A program made the position numbers and the translations under genes. This document shows, one piece after another, positions 1-5,479 of a stretch of 64,000 nucleotides of DNA (position 1 is the stretch's first letter; each line of letters begins with the position of its first letter). The DNA lies in the NCBI RefSeq assembly GCF_023195925.1, contig NZ_JALPRE010000003.1:1-64000 (forward strand). The letters are read 5' to 3'. The notes beneath the pieces were generated by a model. It searched no databases. It saw only the letters and a program-made list of their open reading frames with translations, and was not told where the DNA came from. Origin of the DNA: Aquimarina acroporae. GTDB taxonomy: Bacteria > Bacteroidota > Bacteroidia > Flavobacteriales > Flavobacteriaceae.

Positions 1-537
1 AATGAATTGATAAAGAGCAACCGTCATATCAACTACAAAATGTGAAAGTTTCATTACTAAAGAGATCAAAGCTTGCATCATAAGGCTTGAATTTTTGATT
101 TGTGAAAAATATGACTGATCGTTTTTTGATTCATTCAAATATAAGCTCGATAAAAAGCCAAAAACAAGTGAAGTACATCGTCATTCGGGAATACAGACCC
201 TGCATTCCCAGAATTCAGACCAAGAGTTTTGGTGGTTAAAACATTGGTAATCAGTATTTTTTAATTATTTTTTCTTAAATACCAACTAAAAAGAGAAAAC
301 CGTATCTTTATATACCCTAGTAGAGGGATAGATTTTGGGTTTTTTAGGTTTATTGATATACTTTAGGTGATATAATTATTGTGCAGTACGATGAAATAAC
401 ACCAATTTCATAACATGTTTTTAAGAAAAAATTAGGATTTTTGTGCAAAAATGTGAAATAAAGTACCCTGAGCAGAGTCTTTTGTGAAAGAAAAAGAAAT
501 ATGCTACGACTAATTTTGTTAATCGTGGTGCTATGAA
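1..537. other. Gene-free stretch upstream of the first TPR-AraC regulator
   Basis: I see no convincing gene here. The longest ATG-led plus-strand frame (111-239, 42 codons) has no recognisable motif and runs through the direct-repeat boxes at 189-221, so I treat it as chance. The stretch is AT-rich. It holds two GAATWCAGACC boxes but no clean TAnnTTTG promoter element on the plus strand. It probably contains the control region of the regulator that starts at 538. Confidence 0.5.
189..221. promoter_or_regulatory. Two direct GAATWCAGACC boxes, candidate operator
   Basis: GAATACAGACC at 189-199 and GAATTCAGACC at 211-221 are direct repeats with starts 22 bases apart, about two helical turns. 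The same 11-mer occurs at 2311-2321 as one arm of a palindrome upstream of the peptide gene. Shared boxes on both sides of one regulator suggest binding sites for that regulator, though this is inferred from position and repetition only. The boxes are more than 300 bases upstream of the regulator start at 538, so a distant promoter or an unseen divergent gene is possible. Confidence 0.4.
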
Positions 538-2262
538 ATGACTAAACAAACTACAGTGAACACTAACTACTATCGTATAGTTTTTCCTTTATTGCTTTTA
601 GTTGGCTTTTTGGGAGTAAGCCAGGAAGCTGATGTTATAATTCCTGATTCTTTGAAAAAACGAAGTATTCGTGAAATAGAGAATTCATTAAATAAAAGTT
701 ATGGGGATTCAATTAAGTTCCCTTTGTATGCGAAGGTTTTAATCTCTAAAGCCAAGAAGAAAAATAACTTTTTGGCCTTATTGAAAGGATATGCTGCTGC
801 ATCATTTAGTTCGACTGATCCAAAACTTAAAATAAAATACCTTGATAGTTCTGTTGTATCCAGTAAAAATCTTGATGACAAGAATTATCCTGCATATTCA
901 CATTCTGAAAGAGCACGTACATATAAAAGATTAGGTAACTATAGCAAAGCCTTAGATGATTACTTAAAAGCCTTACAATATTTCGATGAAGCAAATAACA
1001 GAAGTTTCTATTATGAGACCAAGCATAATATTGGTTTGTTAAAAAAAATCATTTATGAGTATGAAGATGCCTCTAAAATGTTTGAAGAAGTGTTGCGGTA
1101 TGAAGATGATAATAATATATCTGGTAAGGGACATTTGTCGACCATGTTAGCGCTTTCTAGCACTTATGTAAAGTTAGGATTACAAGATTCTGCTGCCTAT
1201 TACAATAAAATTGGTATAAATGAATCTCTAAAAGACAGCTTGGACATTTATAATTTTTTCGTGTTGAATGAGGGTATCAACAAGTTTTATAAAAAACAGC
1301 ACAAAGCTTCTTTAGATAGTATAGAAAAGGCTGTGCCAATTATAGAAAAACAATTTAGAAAAATAAACAAATCATTACTTGTAAGTGGTTATTTGCATTT
1401 AGGAAAGTTATACAAGAAGTTTAATAATAATGAAAAAGTATTAGAGTCTTTAGGAAAAATAGATACATATCACGAGGAGACAGGTTTTACCTCTCTAGAG
1501 GTTAGCGAAGGCTATGAGATGCTTATTAAGCATTATAAGGCTGAAGATGACAAGAATCAACAGTTATATTATATTAATAAATTGTTTGCTGTAGACAGTA
1601 TCTTAGATATAAATTATAAAGACCTAAGTAAAAAAATAATTAGGGAATACGATACACCTAGACTTCTTGAAGAAAAAGAACTCTTGATAAGCGATTTACA
1701 AAAGAAGGAGAAAAAATCAAATTTAAAATTAATTATAACGCTAACAGTACTAGTTGTTACAATGGTTATTTTGTTATTACAATATAATAAAAACGTTAAA
1801 TACAAAAAGAGGTTTAATGAATTGATGGAAACTAAAATTCCTGAAGCAAATGAAAAAGAGATCAGTGATAATAAAGATGCAAAAGTTGCAGAAACTTCAA
1901 TAGGAATTTCTAATGAGATTATAACTGATATTTTAAATGGATTAGAAATATTTGAGAAGAAGAAAGGATTTTTATCTGCAAACATTACCACTAATGATCT
2001 TGCAAAACAATTAAATACCAATTCTAAGTACTTATCGAAAATCATTAATACGTATAAAAAGAAAAGCTTTAGTGTGTATATTAATGAATTGCGAATACAG
2101 TATGTTATTGAGAAACTAAAGGATGATTCTAAGTTTAGATTGTATACCGTTAAAGCAATTTCTCGTGAAATAGGGTTCAATACTACGGAGGCATTTTCTA
2201 AATCTTTCTACAAAACCACAGGAATATACCCTTCTTACTTCATTAAGCAGCTAGAAAAATAG
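538..2262 (+). CDS. Membrane-anchored TPR sensor with AraC-type DNA-binding domain (regulator 1)
   Basis: A 574-aa predicted one-component regulator. Residues 1-30 look like a signal peptide ending near GVSQ. About 30-390 is helical and TPR-like (for example ALDDYLKALQYFDEA). Residues 396-416 form a single hydrophobic helix, and about 480-574 is an AraC/XylS-type double HTH ending in GIYPSYFIKQLEK. This order puts the TPR sensor in the periplasm and the HTH in the cytoplasm. A GG-leader peptide gene follows 133 bases downstream on the same strand, and a paralogue with its own peptide gene lies at 3323. In Gram-positive RRNPP regulators a TPR domain binds signal peptides inside the cell; sensing of an exported peptide here is my inference. 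Composition is uniformly AT-rich. The domain call is firm, the ligand unknown. Confidence 0.85.
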   Translation: MTKQTTVNTNYYRIVFPLLLLVGFLGVSQEADVIIPDSLKKRSIREIENSLNKSYGDSIKFPLYAKVLISKAKKKNNFLALLKGYAAASFSSTDPKLKIKYLDSSVVSSKNLDDKNYPAYSHSERARTYKRLGNYSKALDDYLKALQYFDEANNRSFYYETKHNIGLLKKIIYEYEDASKMFEEVLRYEDDNNISGKGHLSTMLALSSTYVKLGLQDSAAYYNKIGINESLKDSLDIYNFFVLNEGINKFYKKQHKASLDSIEKAVPIIEKQFRKINKSLLVSGYLHLGKLYKKFNNNEKVLESLGKIDTYHEETGFTSLEVSEGYEMLIKHYKAEDDKNQQLYYINKLFAVDSILDINYKDLSKKIIREYDTPRLLEEKELLISDLQKKEKKSNLKLIITLTVLVVTMVILLLQYNKNVKYKKRFNELMETKIPEANEKEISDNKDAKVAETSIGISNEIITDILNGLEIFEKKKGFLSANITTNDLAKQLNTNSKYLSKIINTYKKKSFSVYINELRIQYVIEKLKDDSKFRLYTVKAISREIGFNTTEAFSKSFYKTTGIYPSYFIKQLEK

Positions 2263-2296
2263 AATCACACAAGATGTTGATTTACAAGTATTTAAA

Positions 2297-2321
2297 GGTC
2301 TGTTTTCTTAGAATACAGACC
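2297..2321. promoter_or_regulatory. 25-bp inverted repeat upstream of the peptide gene, candidate activator site
   Basis: The arms GGTCTGTTTTC and GAATACAGACC surround a TTA centre, with ten of eleven positions complementary. The right arm repeats the boxes at 189-221. The repeat is centred about 55 bases upstream of the TATATTTG element at 2363 and just upstream of the -33 position, where activators often bind. It could instead be a weak terminator for the regulator, but no T-run follows directly. A binding role is inferred. Confidence 0.45.
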
Positions 2322-2337
2322 GATAGATTGTTTTTTA

Positions 2338-2370
2338 TTGATTTTTTTCTAATCCCAATACCTATATTTG
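2338..2370 (+). promoter_or_regulatory. Bacteroidota-type promoter of the first peptide gene
   Basis: TATATTTG at 2363-2370 is an exact match to the -7 consensus TAnnTTTG known from Flavobacterium and Bacteroides. A TTG at 2338-2340 lies 22 bases upstream, in the -33 range. The predicted transcript start is about 20 bases before the ATG at 2396. A separate promoter means the peptide gene need not be read through from the regulator. Confidence 0.6.
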
Positions 2371-2395
2371 AATCAAACATTTAAACCAAATAATC

Positions 2396-2611
2396 ATGAA
2401 GAAGAATCACACAAAGAAAAAGTTAGTTTTAGGAAAAGTAAATATTGCAAAATTAGATCATAATACACTTGCTGCTGTTAAAGGAGGTACGGGTATTCCA
2501 GATCCAGATTCTAAAGATTCTTTATGTAATACAGGAGATGATAGAGCAGGTAGTGGGTGGCCATGTATATTTACTATTGGAAGAAATATACTTCTAGACA
2601 ATGAACAATAA
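2396..2611 (+). CDS. Double-glycine leader peptide precursor (peptide 1)
   Basis: A 71-aa small protein. Residues 1-31 form a leader with the pattern KLVLGKVNIAKL...AAVKGG, typical of Bacteroidota GG-type natural-product precursors, including those annotated as class I lanthipeptides. Such leaders are normally cut after GG by the peptidase domain of a C39-type ABC exporter. The 40-residue remainder (32-71) is acidic and rich in Gly, Pro and Asp, with two cysteines (44 and 57) that could form a disulfide or a thioether. It has its own promoter and terminator and sits directly after regulator 1. No modifying enzyme or exporter is in this window. It may be a bacteriocin-like product or the signal sensed by the neighbouring regulator; neither is shown. 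Confidence 0.7.
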   Translation: MKKNHTKKKLVLGKVNIAKLDHNTLAAVKGGTGIPDPDSKDSLCNTGDDRAGSGWPCIFTIGRNILLDNEQ

Positions 2612-2785
2612 TATAATAAGTCTTTATTTGATAGTCCTATAACCATTAACACAAAATAGTTCAACAAGTACATATCAGTTAAGACTATTTGTTCTTAATT
2701 GAATATAAAATTTAGCCTTTGCCTTTTGGCAAACAGGGCATCCGGCATATCAACCAGACAGTGAGTAATTATATTTAAAATGATG

Positions 2786-2826
2786 ACAAAACCCCAACTC
2801 TTCTTGAGTTGGGGTTTTGTTTTTTT
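2786..2826. terminator. Intrinsic terminator between peptide 1 and the HTH gene
   Basis: A perfect 15-bp stem (2786-2800 with 2806-2820), TTCTT loop, followed on the plus strand by a run of T to 2826. It ends the peptide 1 transcript and may also stop the converging HTH gene. The 170 bases between the peptide stop and this stem hold only a short hairpin (TTTGCC/GGCAAA at 2718-2733) and no gene I can support. Confidence 0.85.
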
Positions 2827-3097
2827 AACTAGTAAATTGAAATGCAGATTTAGCAGTGTTAGATTTTAAATAAAAGCCATATGAAAACCCTACAACTTCT
2901 TCATAAATATAACTTTGCACATCTACATCATAAACAATAGGGGCGCCAAGAGCTTTCATAGTATTAATGATACGATGTAGTTTGGTTTTTGATATATCTA
3001 ATCGTCTGGCCAATGTGCTTGGAGAGCCAGTTGCCTGCATACGAATAAGTCTATCTATACGCGATATTAATTCTAATTGTATAAGTATATTTTGCAT
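2825..3097 (-). CDS. Small HTH-domain DNA-binding protein
   Basis: A 90-aa protein. Residues about 10-55 match a winged-helix/HTH pattern (IDRLIRMQATGSPSTLARRL, then DISKTKLHRIINTMKALG), like the HTH_11/DeoR-type domains found in short Bacteroidota proteins. The C-terminal part is rich in Tyr, Phe and Val (YIYEEVVGFSYGFYLKS) and not recognisable. It is transcribed toward peptide 1 and away from regulator 2. Short proteins of this kind often lie next to small-peptide genes in flavobacteria, so a role in local control is plausible but unproven. It could also be a remnant of a longer regulator. Confidence 0.6.
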   Translation of the reverse strand: MQNILIQLELISRIDRLIRMQATGSPSTLARRLDISKTKLHRIINTMKALGAPIVYDVDVQSYIYEEVVGFSYGFYLKSNTAKSAFQFTS

Positions 3098-3322
3098 TAC
3101 TTTTCCCTTTTTAAGTTTGTTAGTTATTCATGATTAGTAAAAGCAATTATAATCATATGGTTACAAATTATCTAGACGTAGGTTTTTTTACGTTTACAGG
3201 TCAAATGTAGTGGCAAGTTGCTCCCAAAAACAAGAAAATATACCCGTAATTCATGAAAATAGGGCGATATTATAAGGGTTAAGTATTTGATAATAATGGT
3301 ATTATTGATTTTTCTAAGAAAA

Positions 3323-5179
3323 ATGATTACATGCAATAAAAAACTTATTTTTGATATCTATTTTAAGGTAAAACCAATTGTACAATCTCTTTTGAAACCT
3401 GTTTCTACATTTTTTTATCCCTATAAAATACAAGTACTGTTGTTCTTTTTTGTGGTATTTGGGTTGCAAGCAGCAATAGCTCAAGAAAAGAATCTTATAA
3501 TTCCAGACTCATTACTAAAGTTGAGTTATGATGAGCTTAGATCAAGATGGGAACAAGAAAGATATGGGGAAAATAAATACACTGAAGTTTATGCTAGAGC
3601 TTACCTCCAAAAAAGTAAGAATGAAAATAGTGTTATAGAAAATGCAATTGGATATATAATGGTTAGTGTTATTTTCCATGATAGCCCAGAAATACAAATC
3701 CAATATAATGATAGTGCGATAGCAATTACAAAGAATATTAAACATAAATCCTTTCCTGCGCTTTTTTACATTTATAAAGGAACCAATTATGATGAATTAG
3801 GAAATTTTAGTAAAGCATTTGAGAACTATTTGGAAGCAATGAAATGGGCAAAAAGATCCCAAAACAAAAACCATATATCTATTCTAAAAAATAACATTGC
3901 TATTTTGAAAAGAAAGATAGGGAAATATGAAGAAGCTAAATCTATGATGAAAGAATGTCTAATTTACATTGGCAATAAAAAAGAAATGAGAAAAATAGAT
4001 TCCCTTAGTTATTTGGTATCATTATCAGATTTGGTTAATATTTATCGTTTGAATTCACAGATTGATTCTGCTTTAATTTATAACAAAAAAGGTCTTAATT
4101 CTTCTATTGGAGAAAGGTTAAATAATAATGATAAATCGATAAAGGAGAAAGAAACTGCGAACTTATTCAAATTGAATAAGGCTATGCTTTATTATTATGA
4201 AAAAAGATATAGTGAAGTTATAGATGGAATTAATGATGTTTTACCGGATTTATTAAGTTATGAAAACAGGTATTTTTTTAATGAATATGATTTGATAACT
4301 GCTTATCTATATTTAGGAAAATCATATGAGGCGTTATTGGATGAAAAAAACATGGTTTATTATTATAAAAGAATTGATTCTCTTGCTCAAACAGTAAATT
4401 ACATCTTACCTGAAACTAAATTGGCGTATAAAAAGTTGATTCAATATTATAAAATAAACGAGAATAGAGATCAACAACTTTTTTACATTAACAGATTGTT
4501 ATATGCGGACAGTATTTTGGATCATACCTATCGATATTTAGGAGATAAACTTAAAAAAGACTACGACATTCCGCAGTTACTTGTAGAAAAAGAAGCCTTA
4601 ATCACAGATTTAGAAGCCAAAGACAACCAATCGTCCAAAGTAATTTTGGGGCTGTCTTTGTTTTCTCTGGTGCTTGGTGGTTTTTTATTCTGGAATTATC
4701 GTAAACGTAAGGCTTATACGCAACGTTTTGAGCTGCTTATGAATCAAACGAAAGAAGAGGAACAAAAACCCGTGCAAGAGTCTTCTAAAGATTCAGATAT
4801 TGGTATTTCAGACAGTATCGTGACCGAAATTCTACAAAAACTTGATGATTTTGAGCAGCAGCAAGGGTATCTTAAAAATAGCCTTACTCTAAACTCACTG
4901 GCCAAAGAGCTAAAAACAAATGCCAATTATTTGTCTAAGATTGTAAATGCCAATAAGCATAAAAGTTTTAGTCATTACATTAATGATCTTAGAATTGAAT
5001 ACGTTGTTACACAACTTAAGTCAAACTCTACTTTTAGAAAGTATACCGTAAAAGCTATTGCCAACGAGATAGGATTTAAAAGTCCCGATGCCTTCTCAAA
5101 AGCGTTTTACAAGAGTACAGGTATTTACCCTTCTTATTTTATCAAACAGTTGGAAAAGCAGACGACGGTTACAACTTAA
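3323..5179 (+). CDS. Membrane-anchored TPR sensor with AraC-type DNA-binding domain (regulator 2)
   Basis: A 618-aa paralogue of the regulator at 538 with the same order: long N-terminal segment ending in a signal-like stretch (VLLFFFVVFGLQAAIAQ), then IIPDSL as in regulator 1, a TPR-like region, a membrane helix at about 437-459, an acidic linker, and an AraC double HTH in the last 95 residues. The end GIYPSYFIKQLEK is identical in both. The start is uncertain: TTG 3287, ATG 3296 and ATG 3323 are in frame. I prefer 3323, which shortens the odd N-terminal extension and has A-rich upstream sequence. Composition changes inside the gene: sampled 60-base lines are 23-25% G+C before 4140 but 37-45% after 4620, suggesting a mosaic. 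A GG-peptide gene converges on its 3' end. Confidence 0.8.
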   Translation: MITCNKKLIFDIYFKVKPIVQSLLKPVSTFFYPYKIQVLLFFFVVFGLQAAIAQEKNLIIPDSLLKLSYDELRSRWEQERYGENKYTEVYARAYLQKSKNENSVIENAIGYIMVSVIFHDSPEIQIQYNDSAIAITKNIKHKSFPALFYIYKGTNYDELGNFSKAFENYLEAMKWAKRSQNKNHISILKNNIAILKRKIGKYEEAKSMMKECLIYIGNKKEMRKIDSLSYLVSLSDLVNIYRLNSQIDSALIYNKKGLNSSIGERLNNNDKSIKEKETANLFKLNKAMLYYYEKRYSEVIDGINDVLPDLLSYENRYFFNEYDLITAYLYLGKSYEALLDEKNMVYYYKRIDSLAQTVNYILPETKLAYKKLIQYYKINENRDQQLFYINRLLYADSILDHTYRYLGDKLKKDYDIPQLLVEKEALITDLEAKDNQSSKVILGLSLFSLVLGGFLFWNYRKRKAYTQRFELLMNQTKEEEQKPVQESSKDSDIGISDSIVTEILQKLDDFEQQQGYLKNSLTLNSLAKELKTNANYLSKIVNANKHKSFSHYINDLRIEYVVTQLKSNSTFRKYTVKAIANEIGFKSPDAFSKAFYKSTGIYPSYFIKQLEKQTTVTT

Positions 5180-5212
5180 AAAACCCTGCTATGTATACAT
5201 AACAGGGTTTTG
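5178..5212 (+). terminator. Intrinsic terminator of regulator 2
   Basis: AAACCCTG and CAGGGTTT arms with a nearly fully palindromic interior (TATGTATACATA) and T-rich ends. It overlaps the regulator stop codon. It separates the regulator from the converging peptide gene and could work in both directions. Confidence 0.75.
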
Positions 5213-5253
5213 TTCAACACAAATAATCTTGGTTCAGACAAGAAAATTTTTTA

Positions 5254-5421
5254 TTAGTACTGGATAAGATCCTCTAGAGTTGGTCGTTTAGGTCCGATAG
5301 GTAAAACAGGCCCTGTGCATCCGTTTCCAGATCCGTCATCAGTGACATTTGTAGTGTGAGGATTCATTCCTCCATTAATACTAGTTAATTCACGAACAGT
5401 TAAATTTTGTAAACCTTTCAT
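5254..5421 (-). CDS. Double-glycine leader peptide precursor (peptide 2)
   Basis: A 55-aa precursor starting MKGLQNLTVRELTSINGG. The pattern MKxLxxLxxxxLxxIxGG is the short GG-leader form common in flavobacteria. The frame is open to an ATG at 5442, but the start at 5421 gives the usual leader length and follows an A-rich stretch. The predicted mature part (residues 19-55) is Gly, Pro and Thr rich with one cysteine (residue 35) and ends EDLIQY. It converges on regulator 2, with a terminator between them. No modifying enzyme or exporter is in view. Together with peptide 1 it makes two regulator-peptide pairs within 5 kb. Confidence 0.65.
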   Translation of the reverse strand: MKGLQNLTVRELTSINGGMNPHTTNVTDDGSGNGCTGPVLPIGPKRPTLEDLIQY

Positions 5422-5479
5422 TTTTTGATTTTTTAAATACATTACCTTGATGAAGGGTAATAGTGTTATTGTTTGATTT

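Follow-up and report, generated by a model that had tools for sequence, protein, structure and literature searches.

We describe a regulator–lanthipeptide cassette in Aquimarina acroporae (RefSeq assembly GCF_023195925.1, genome size 5.18 Mb). It lies at the left end of contig NZ_JALPRE010000003.1, whose positions 1–64,000 on the forward strand were analysed and are called the window below. The cassette consists of a predicted membrane-spanning regulator, reg1, which combines tetratricopeptide repeats (TPR) with an AraC-type helix-turn-helix (HTH) domain, and of lanA, a downstream gene for a peptide with a double-glycine (GG) leader, most likely a class I lanthipeptide precursor. In the reading we favour, with a probability of roughly 0.55, reg1 controls lanA and is itself switched by the exported product in an autoinduction loop. 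The elements of this cassette in the window are:

538–2262, plus strand: regulator 1 (reg1), 574 amino acids, with an N-terminal hydrophobic segment, a TPR solenoid, one membrane helix and an AraC-type HTH_18 domain.
2297–2321: presumed operator, GGTCTGT-TTTCTTAGAAT-ACAGACC, with a TTC-N3-GAA core and GTCTG/CAGAC arms.
2363–2370, plus strand: -7 box TATATTTG, which fits TAnnTTTG and lies about 54 bp from the operator centre.
2396–2611, plus strand: lanA, lanthipeptide precursor between reg1 and reg2, with leader KKLVLGKVNIAKLD..VKGG and a core containing Ser/Thr and two Cys.
3287–5179, plus strand: regulator 2 (reg2), a paralogue of reg1, 630 amino acids counted from the TTG at 3287; its true start is uncertain.
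184–221, minus strand: two tandem sites GGTCTG-NN-TTC-N2/3-GAA, between the presumed exporter operon and reg1.

Sixteen full-length paralogues of the regulator are encoded in the A. acroporae genome, and 11 of these 16 are followed on the same strand, about 100–155 bp downstream, by a leader peptide. Two further paralogues are the first and second genes of a tandem trio whose last member is paired with lanA, and reg2 and two other regulators have no leader peptide downstream. Matches to the class I lanthipeptide leader model NF038153 (E ≤ 1) show the same association, since 8 of the 11 in the genome lie directly behind one of the 16 regulators; six of the 11 exceed the cut-off, four of them directly behind a regulator. 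We then ran a hidden Markov model (HMM) of the leader, built solely from the A. acroporae peptides, on 124 loci of other Aquimarina genomes, each picked for holding a regulator (143 regulators, 141 distinct after removal of duplicates). As many as 116 of the 121 matches of at least 10 bits were located downstream of a regulator on the same strand and within 1 kb. Counted by regulator, a leader peptide was found behind 94 of the 137 distinct regulators for which 600 bp or more of downstream sequence was available, and 17 have two or more; two of the four regulators dropped for shorter downstream sequence do have a leader. The own-genome locus L080 and the HTH-only match L079 had been removed before these counts. 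As a control, no leader peptide was found among 575 small open reading frames (ORFs) from 14 own-genome loci with AraC-only regulators and from the rest of the window. The initial annotation had proposed a test for enrichment of GG peptides beside this regulator architecture, and the counts from both data sets show such enrichment.

At E ≤ 1e-60 the regulator is present in 51 of 66 Aquimarina genomes, reaching at least 20 copies in one genome among the best 20 candidates scored in each. In an even draw from the bacterial family that includes few Aquimarina, 69 of 397 genomes match it at E ≤ 1e-100. Since the regulators were taken from the best matches listed, ranked by E-value with at most 20 candidates per genome, weaker relatives are under-sampled. 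Of 30 regulators in 28 loci of other genera, 10 are accompanied by a leader peptide, seven of them directly behind a gene resembling the C-terminal part of a split LanB. Judged by these counts, the cassette is expanded within Aquimarina, where it forms a large family, and is rarer outside this genus. Among 20 LanB regions from other genera, hand-picked from 51 matches listed, a full TPR-AraC regulator was found in three of the seven with split LanB (two of which are short contigs ending at lanB) and in none of the 13 with full-length LanB. The cassette does not generally accompany class I lanthipeptides.

The product of the window lanA passes NF038153 with 30.5 bits against a cut-off of 22. 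The cores of the regulator-linked peptides are diverse (median 33 residues), with Ser/Thr before Cys in 106 of 110 distinct cores from other species and with a Cys content of 7.7%, compared with 0.53% in the long ORFs of these loci (roughly half of them regulators). In the class I route, LanB and LanC dehydrate and cyclise the precursor, and a C39 exporter removes the GG leader. The single LanB of the A. acroporae genome is encoded on contig C3 together with LanC, a split LanB C-domain gene (Lant_dehydr_C), two lanA genes and three tandem regulators, and this cluster is not adjacent to the window lanA. Among the 66 Aquimarina genomes, 48 have both LanB and the regulator, three the regulator only, two LanB only and 13 neither, with genome size and kinship uncontrolled. 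We are fairly sure that the regulator-linked peptides are class I lanthipeptide precursors following the LanB/LanC/C39 route.

The intergenic regions between regulators and lanA contain a palindrome with a shared core and lineage-specific arms. The core, TTC-N2-4-GAA, occurs in the first 100 bp of 98 of 105 pairs (11 own, 94 from other species), versus a mean of 15.2 in dinucleotide shuffles; pairs with an intergenic length outside 50–350 bp or with short upstream sequence had been dropped (107 to 105). Measured against shuffles, the palindromes score above the 99th percentile in 21 of the 105 pairs and above the 95th in 45. The intergenic region is somewhat more similar to the upstream region of its own regulator than to those of swapped partners, at or above the 95th percentile in 39 pairs and the 99th in 11. 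A single Bacteroidota -7 box, TAnnTTTG, was found in each of 45 out of 100 pairs, compared with 8.8 in dinucleotide shuffles; the other 55 have none. Where present, it starts 52–54 bp from the operator centre in 42 of 45 pairs, an arrangement expected in 0.2 of 100 shuffled ones. The core also tracks a residue of the recognition helix: at the position equal to K497 of reg1, lysine is found in 98 of 100 pairs with the TTC core (asparagine in one, serine in one), whereas six of the seven pairs without it have threonine and one has lysine. A different core, TTTATAAA, is present in three threonine-type pairs that lack TTC and also in a serine-type pair (L190). Ten pairs from other genera follow a similar division, with the TTC core in four of four pairs carrying Lys or Arg, TTTATAAA in three of four carrying Ser or Thr, and one of each in pairs carrying Asn.

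Matches to the window-type half-operator, GGTCTGNNTTCN(2,3)GAA, number eight in the whole genome: four in the window locus, two of which are both strands of one palindrome, two in the L002 locus and two within open coding frames. The reversed pattern is absent from the genome. In the sister-species loci L243–L247, the GTCTG/CAGAC half-site is found at two places, in front of lanA and in the stretch that separates lanB from the exporter operon; in L248 it occurs before lanB only. In the lan cluster on contig C3, inspection by eye found no TTC core between lanA and lanC. The operator core, its spacing to the -7 box, the tracking of the helix residue and the recurrence of the half-site together indicate that the regulator very probably activates lanA and probably also activates the exporter and its own gene. 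Control of the peptide gene by the regulator, an assumption of the initial annotation, is thus supported by the operator, the spacing and the correlation at K497.

Two other explanations of the palindromes were considered. Being located shortly after the regulator stop codon, they could simply end the regulator transcript, the pairing with lanA then reflecting operon inheritance; this is very hard to reconcile with the recurrence of the core and half-sites in front of regulators and in the lanB–exporter interval, with the fixed distance to the lanA -7 box and with a core that changes with the HTH residue, so that we regard it as the least probable explanation. It is also improbable, if somewhat less so, that the regulator represses lanA and the exporter until the peptide or antibiotic stress relieves it. 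A near-perfect palindrome, as in the 21 pairs above the 99th percentile, is usual at many repressor sites, but an operator centred 52–54 bp upstream of the -7 box is placed like an activator site and leaves the core promoter uncovered, and AraC-type HTH proteins are mostly activators.

The probable position of the exporter genes follows from the contig end:

1–45: contig end overlapping contig C30, an exact 45 bp match to the C30 reverse complement.

Contig C30 encodes an HlyD-type fusion protein and an ABC exporter with a C39 peptidase domain (Pfam HlyD_3, Peptidase_C39, ABC_tran). Because the first 45 bp equal the end of this contig, the exporter operon probably lies just left of the window, pointing away from it. 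A window-type locus is present in five of eight sister-species regions (L243–L247), whose genes were named by resemblance to Pfam-tested genes of A. acroporae, and the lanB N-terminal parts by a LanB search. The gene order in L245 is the C39 exporter and HlyD-type gene diverging from the lanB N-part, followed by the lanB C-part, reg1, lanA, reg2 and a ribonuclease gene. The second regulator is absent from L243 and L246, and where present in the sister loci it comes after reg1–lanA and has no lanA of its own. The window retains the order reg1–lanA–reg2–ribonuclease; since the lanB genes are missing between the 184–221 sites and reg1, the window precursor would need LanB in trans.

The closest named relatives of reg1 belong to Aquimarina, and reg1 and reg2 share 38% identity. 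TPR repeats and HTH_18 were identified by Pfam in both proteins, and hydropathy profiles show an N-terminal hydrophobic stretch in each; 19-residue hydrophobic windows before the HTH begin at residues 393–400 in reg1 and 449–453 in reg2 (630-residue numbering). A hydrophobic segment precedes the HTH in 106 of 107 regulators, an N-terminal segment is present in 90, and a further strong segment between the two positions occurs in two; the mean net charge is +1.2 before the helix and +4.8 after it. An AlphaFold2 model of reg1 built from 18 sequences (mean predicted local distance difference test score 83.9, predicted template modelling score 0.60) has a TPR solenoid at approximately residues 37–360, a single long helix spanning the membrane segment, and the HTH. 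By these predictions the TPR part would be extracytoplasmic and the AraC HTH cytoplasmic, with one membrane helix between them. The initial description of two paralogous TPR proteins with a hydrophobic N-terminus, one helix and an AraC HTH is therefore confirmed by ORFs, Pfam and hydropathy, and the predicted topology agrees with its placing of the TPR part outside the cytoplasm.

In a structural comparison, the solenoid matches peptide-bound LGN, Rap-Phr and NprR-NprX over some 300 residues (Z about 23–25). It is similar in length and shape to that of the RRNPP receptors (Z about 23 for Rap-Phr and NprR-NprX), with eukaryotic TPR proteins scoring equally well; the initial annotation had cited the RRNPP family for its binding of signal peptides in Gram-positives. 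Membership in RRNPP is nevertheless excluded by the architecture: the known members (Rap, NprR, PlcR, Rgg) are cytoplasmic and have an Xre-type HTH or no HTH, whereas here an N-terminal TPR part, predicted to be extracytoplasmic, is connected across a membrane helix to a C-terminal AraC-type HTH_18. A TPR part predicted to lie outside the cytoplasm, with a fold like that of peptide-bound TPR proteins, makes peptide binding there plausible.

In the proposed mechanism, reg1 would span the inner membrane, with an extracytoplasmic TPR solenoid and a cytoplasmic HTH. The HTH would bind the palindromic operator before lanA and the sites between the C39 exporter operon and reg1, and binding would activate these promoters; sequence support for this step is good for lanA and less direct for the exporter. 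LanB and LanC, supplied in trans from contig C3, would dehydrate and cyclise the precursor, and the exported peptide or its breakdown product would bind the TPR groove and switch the HTH through the single helix, which would close a positive autoinduction loop. That the exported product is the ligand of the regulator is plausible and has the odds slightly in its favour. We are more doubtful about an extension of this mechanism to a multi-channel network, in which each cell would have as many as about 20 paralogous membrane receptors. Each receptor would read its own lanthipeptide pheromone with an extracytoplasmic TPR groove and address operators with lineage-specific arms, and one shared LanB would mature all the pheromones. 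Some arms are common to several paralogues (for example, the TCGAAA type), and the channels would thus not be fully separate.

The less probable but serious alternative to product sensing is that the regulator activates lanA and the exporter while its TPR part senses something else, such as the envelope state, a competitor's product or a surface component; the peptide would then be a weapon, and the paralogues would provide condition-specific production. All the evidence connecting the regulator to lanA fits this explanation equally well. Regulators without a downstream peptide, 43 of 137 in other Aquimarina and 20 of 30 in other genera, several of them beside pairs of proteins of about 240 amino acids, imply that members of the TPR family must also respond to other signals. 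Three features make product sensing attractive without proving it: each paired regulator has a peptide core of its own, the layout is autoregulatory, and two other loci have a TPR-histidine kinase adjoining lanA. Coevolution also bears on the choice. The partial correlation of the peptide core with the TPR part given the HTH was 0.405, a value reached in none of 500 permutations, versus -0.028 for core and HTH given the TPR part. However, with the 110 most conserved TPR columns, chosen to match conservation, these values became 0.090 and 0.317; because the order was reversed, no conclusion was drawn, and the control does not tie the core to the TPR part. Contrasting pairs were too few, eight with similar HTH and divergent TPR parts and six of the opposite kind.

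Besides the peptide-less regulators and the reversed coevolution order, several observations weigh against the favoured reading of autoinduction by the product. The TPR match is generic; eukaryotic LGN ranks above Rap in the structural comparison. Similarity between the intergenic region and the regulator's own upstream region is modest on average (12.5, versus 10.7 for swapped regulators), and in the window pair it is 12.0, an AT-rich match below the 95th percentile. The lanB sites of the sister species match on one arm only. Three Aquimarina genomes have regulators without LanB, one of these genomes being 55% complete. Finally, since the species are related, the counts are not independent.

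Among the 43 regulators without lanA, a TTC core occurs within 150 bp downstream in 19 (7.0 in shuffles) and within 300 bp upstream in 22 (11.3 in shuffles), a weaker enrichment than at the pairs. In other genera, TPR-AraC relatives without lanA (L217, L219, L220, L223 and L224) adjoin proteins of a recurring type, about 240 amino acids long with signal-like starts.

The surroundings of reg2 contain two further features:

3250–3257: TTC-AT-GAA core with CCC/GGG arms upstream of reg2, a weak candidate operator.
5254–5442 (alternatively 5254–5421), minus strand: second GG-leader ORF, of a different leader class and convergent with reg2, judged to be outside the system.

The initial annotation had claimed two regulator–peptide pairs. 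The first, reg1 with 2396–2611 on the plus strand, stands; the second, reg2 with 5254–5421 on the minus strand, was rejected. Its ORF is convergent with reg2, belongs to a different GG class and matches no family model above cut-off. A palindrome at 5181–5210, which looks like a bidirectional terminator, separates it from reg2. In four loci judged equivalent by synteny (L124, L138, L180 and L202) the ribonuclease gene comes next after the regulator and no GG ORF is listed in the interval, whereas in the window the ribonuclease gene lies beyond this ORF. Among the loci compared, homologues of the second peptide (E below 1e-5) were found convergent and downstream of other regulator–lanA pairs in L177, L186 and L196 only.

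Other genes recur near the cassettes. Downstream of lanA, and in the same orientation, there is a Peptidase_S9 (prolyl oligopeptidase) gene at L050:9692–11842 and L059:5257–7422 and in 23 of the 124 other-species loci, and it was found in none of the 14 AraC-only loci; a subtilase (S8) gene follows lanA in a few loci. Three S9 genes and one S8 gene were Pfam-tested and the remaining ones identified by tblastn. These proteases could possibly serve in the maturation or turnover of the exported peptide. Between lanA and reg2, the window contains a gene for a small winged-helix-like protein (2825–3097, minus strand), with look-alikes near regulators in L006 (3938–4231) and L132. A run of GG-leader peptides, several of them Gly/Ala-rich and bacteriocin-like in appearance, adjoins a regulator–lanA pair in L053 (contig C25, 2493–5373). 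GG peptides with a C39 exporter adjoin the L004 regulator pair at L050:31–4857, together with a gene that we take, by its sequence style, to encode a grasp-type maturase.

TPR histidine kinases are frequent in the phylum, and two loci bring them next to lanthipeptide genes. In the A. acroporae genome, lanA, LanC, a LytTR response regulator and a TPR histidine kinase occur together (L054, contig C20, 15000–25000). In another, distant family of the class, eight lanthipeptide-type precursors surround a response regulator and a TPR-HisKA_3 kinase, and LanB and a C39-like exporter are encoded there as well (L290:12207–16986). The TPR sensor is the part common to the regulator cassettes and the lanA-adjoining kinases.

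Lantibiotic autoinduction of the NisRK/SpaRK type proceeds through two-component systems. Similar to those systems, the precursor and the biosynthesis/export genes of a lanthipeptide locus here share the operators of one cognate regulator, and autoinduction is possible; in contrast to them, one membrane-spanning TPR-AraC protein of a Gram-negative bacterium replaces the kinase and response regulator, and product sensing is a putative step. The predicted single chain of sensor, one helix and cytoplasmic HTH resembles ToxR, CadC and TcpP, in which the sensor is periplasmic, but here the HTH is on the C-terminal side and of AraC rather than OmpR type, and the sensor is a TPR domain. Bacteroidetes class I precursors with an LxLxKx5L leader and GG site have already been published (PMC7268733), and the pinensin-type lanthipeptides of that survey share with the present system the leader motif, GG site, split LanB and C39 exporter. 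Precursors entered the survey if they lay no more than seven genes from a LanC-domain protein, whereas most precursors of the A. acroporae genome are far from the single LanB and each has its own regulator; neither TPR nor AraC is mentioned in the main text of the survey. TPR proteins in two Bacteroidales clusters for ribosomally synthesized and post-translationally modified peptides have been suggested as possible regulators acting after pheromone binding (PMC10352776). In the open-access literature, no paper on the architecture of TPR, membrane helix and AraC with a lanthipeptide was among the matches listed (titles and abstract openings), and an earlier description elsewhere is possible.

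If activation by the regulator is true, many Aquimarina lanthipeptide precursors lie far from biosynthetic genes and can be found by the regulator and its operator, the latter indicating where the promoter lies. If the regulator senses the product as well, Bacteroidota would possess a one-protein, membrane-spanning pheromone receptor for modified peptides, present in many copies per genome, and these cassettes would provide a ready set of receptor–operator–peptide modules for tests of signal specificity.

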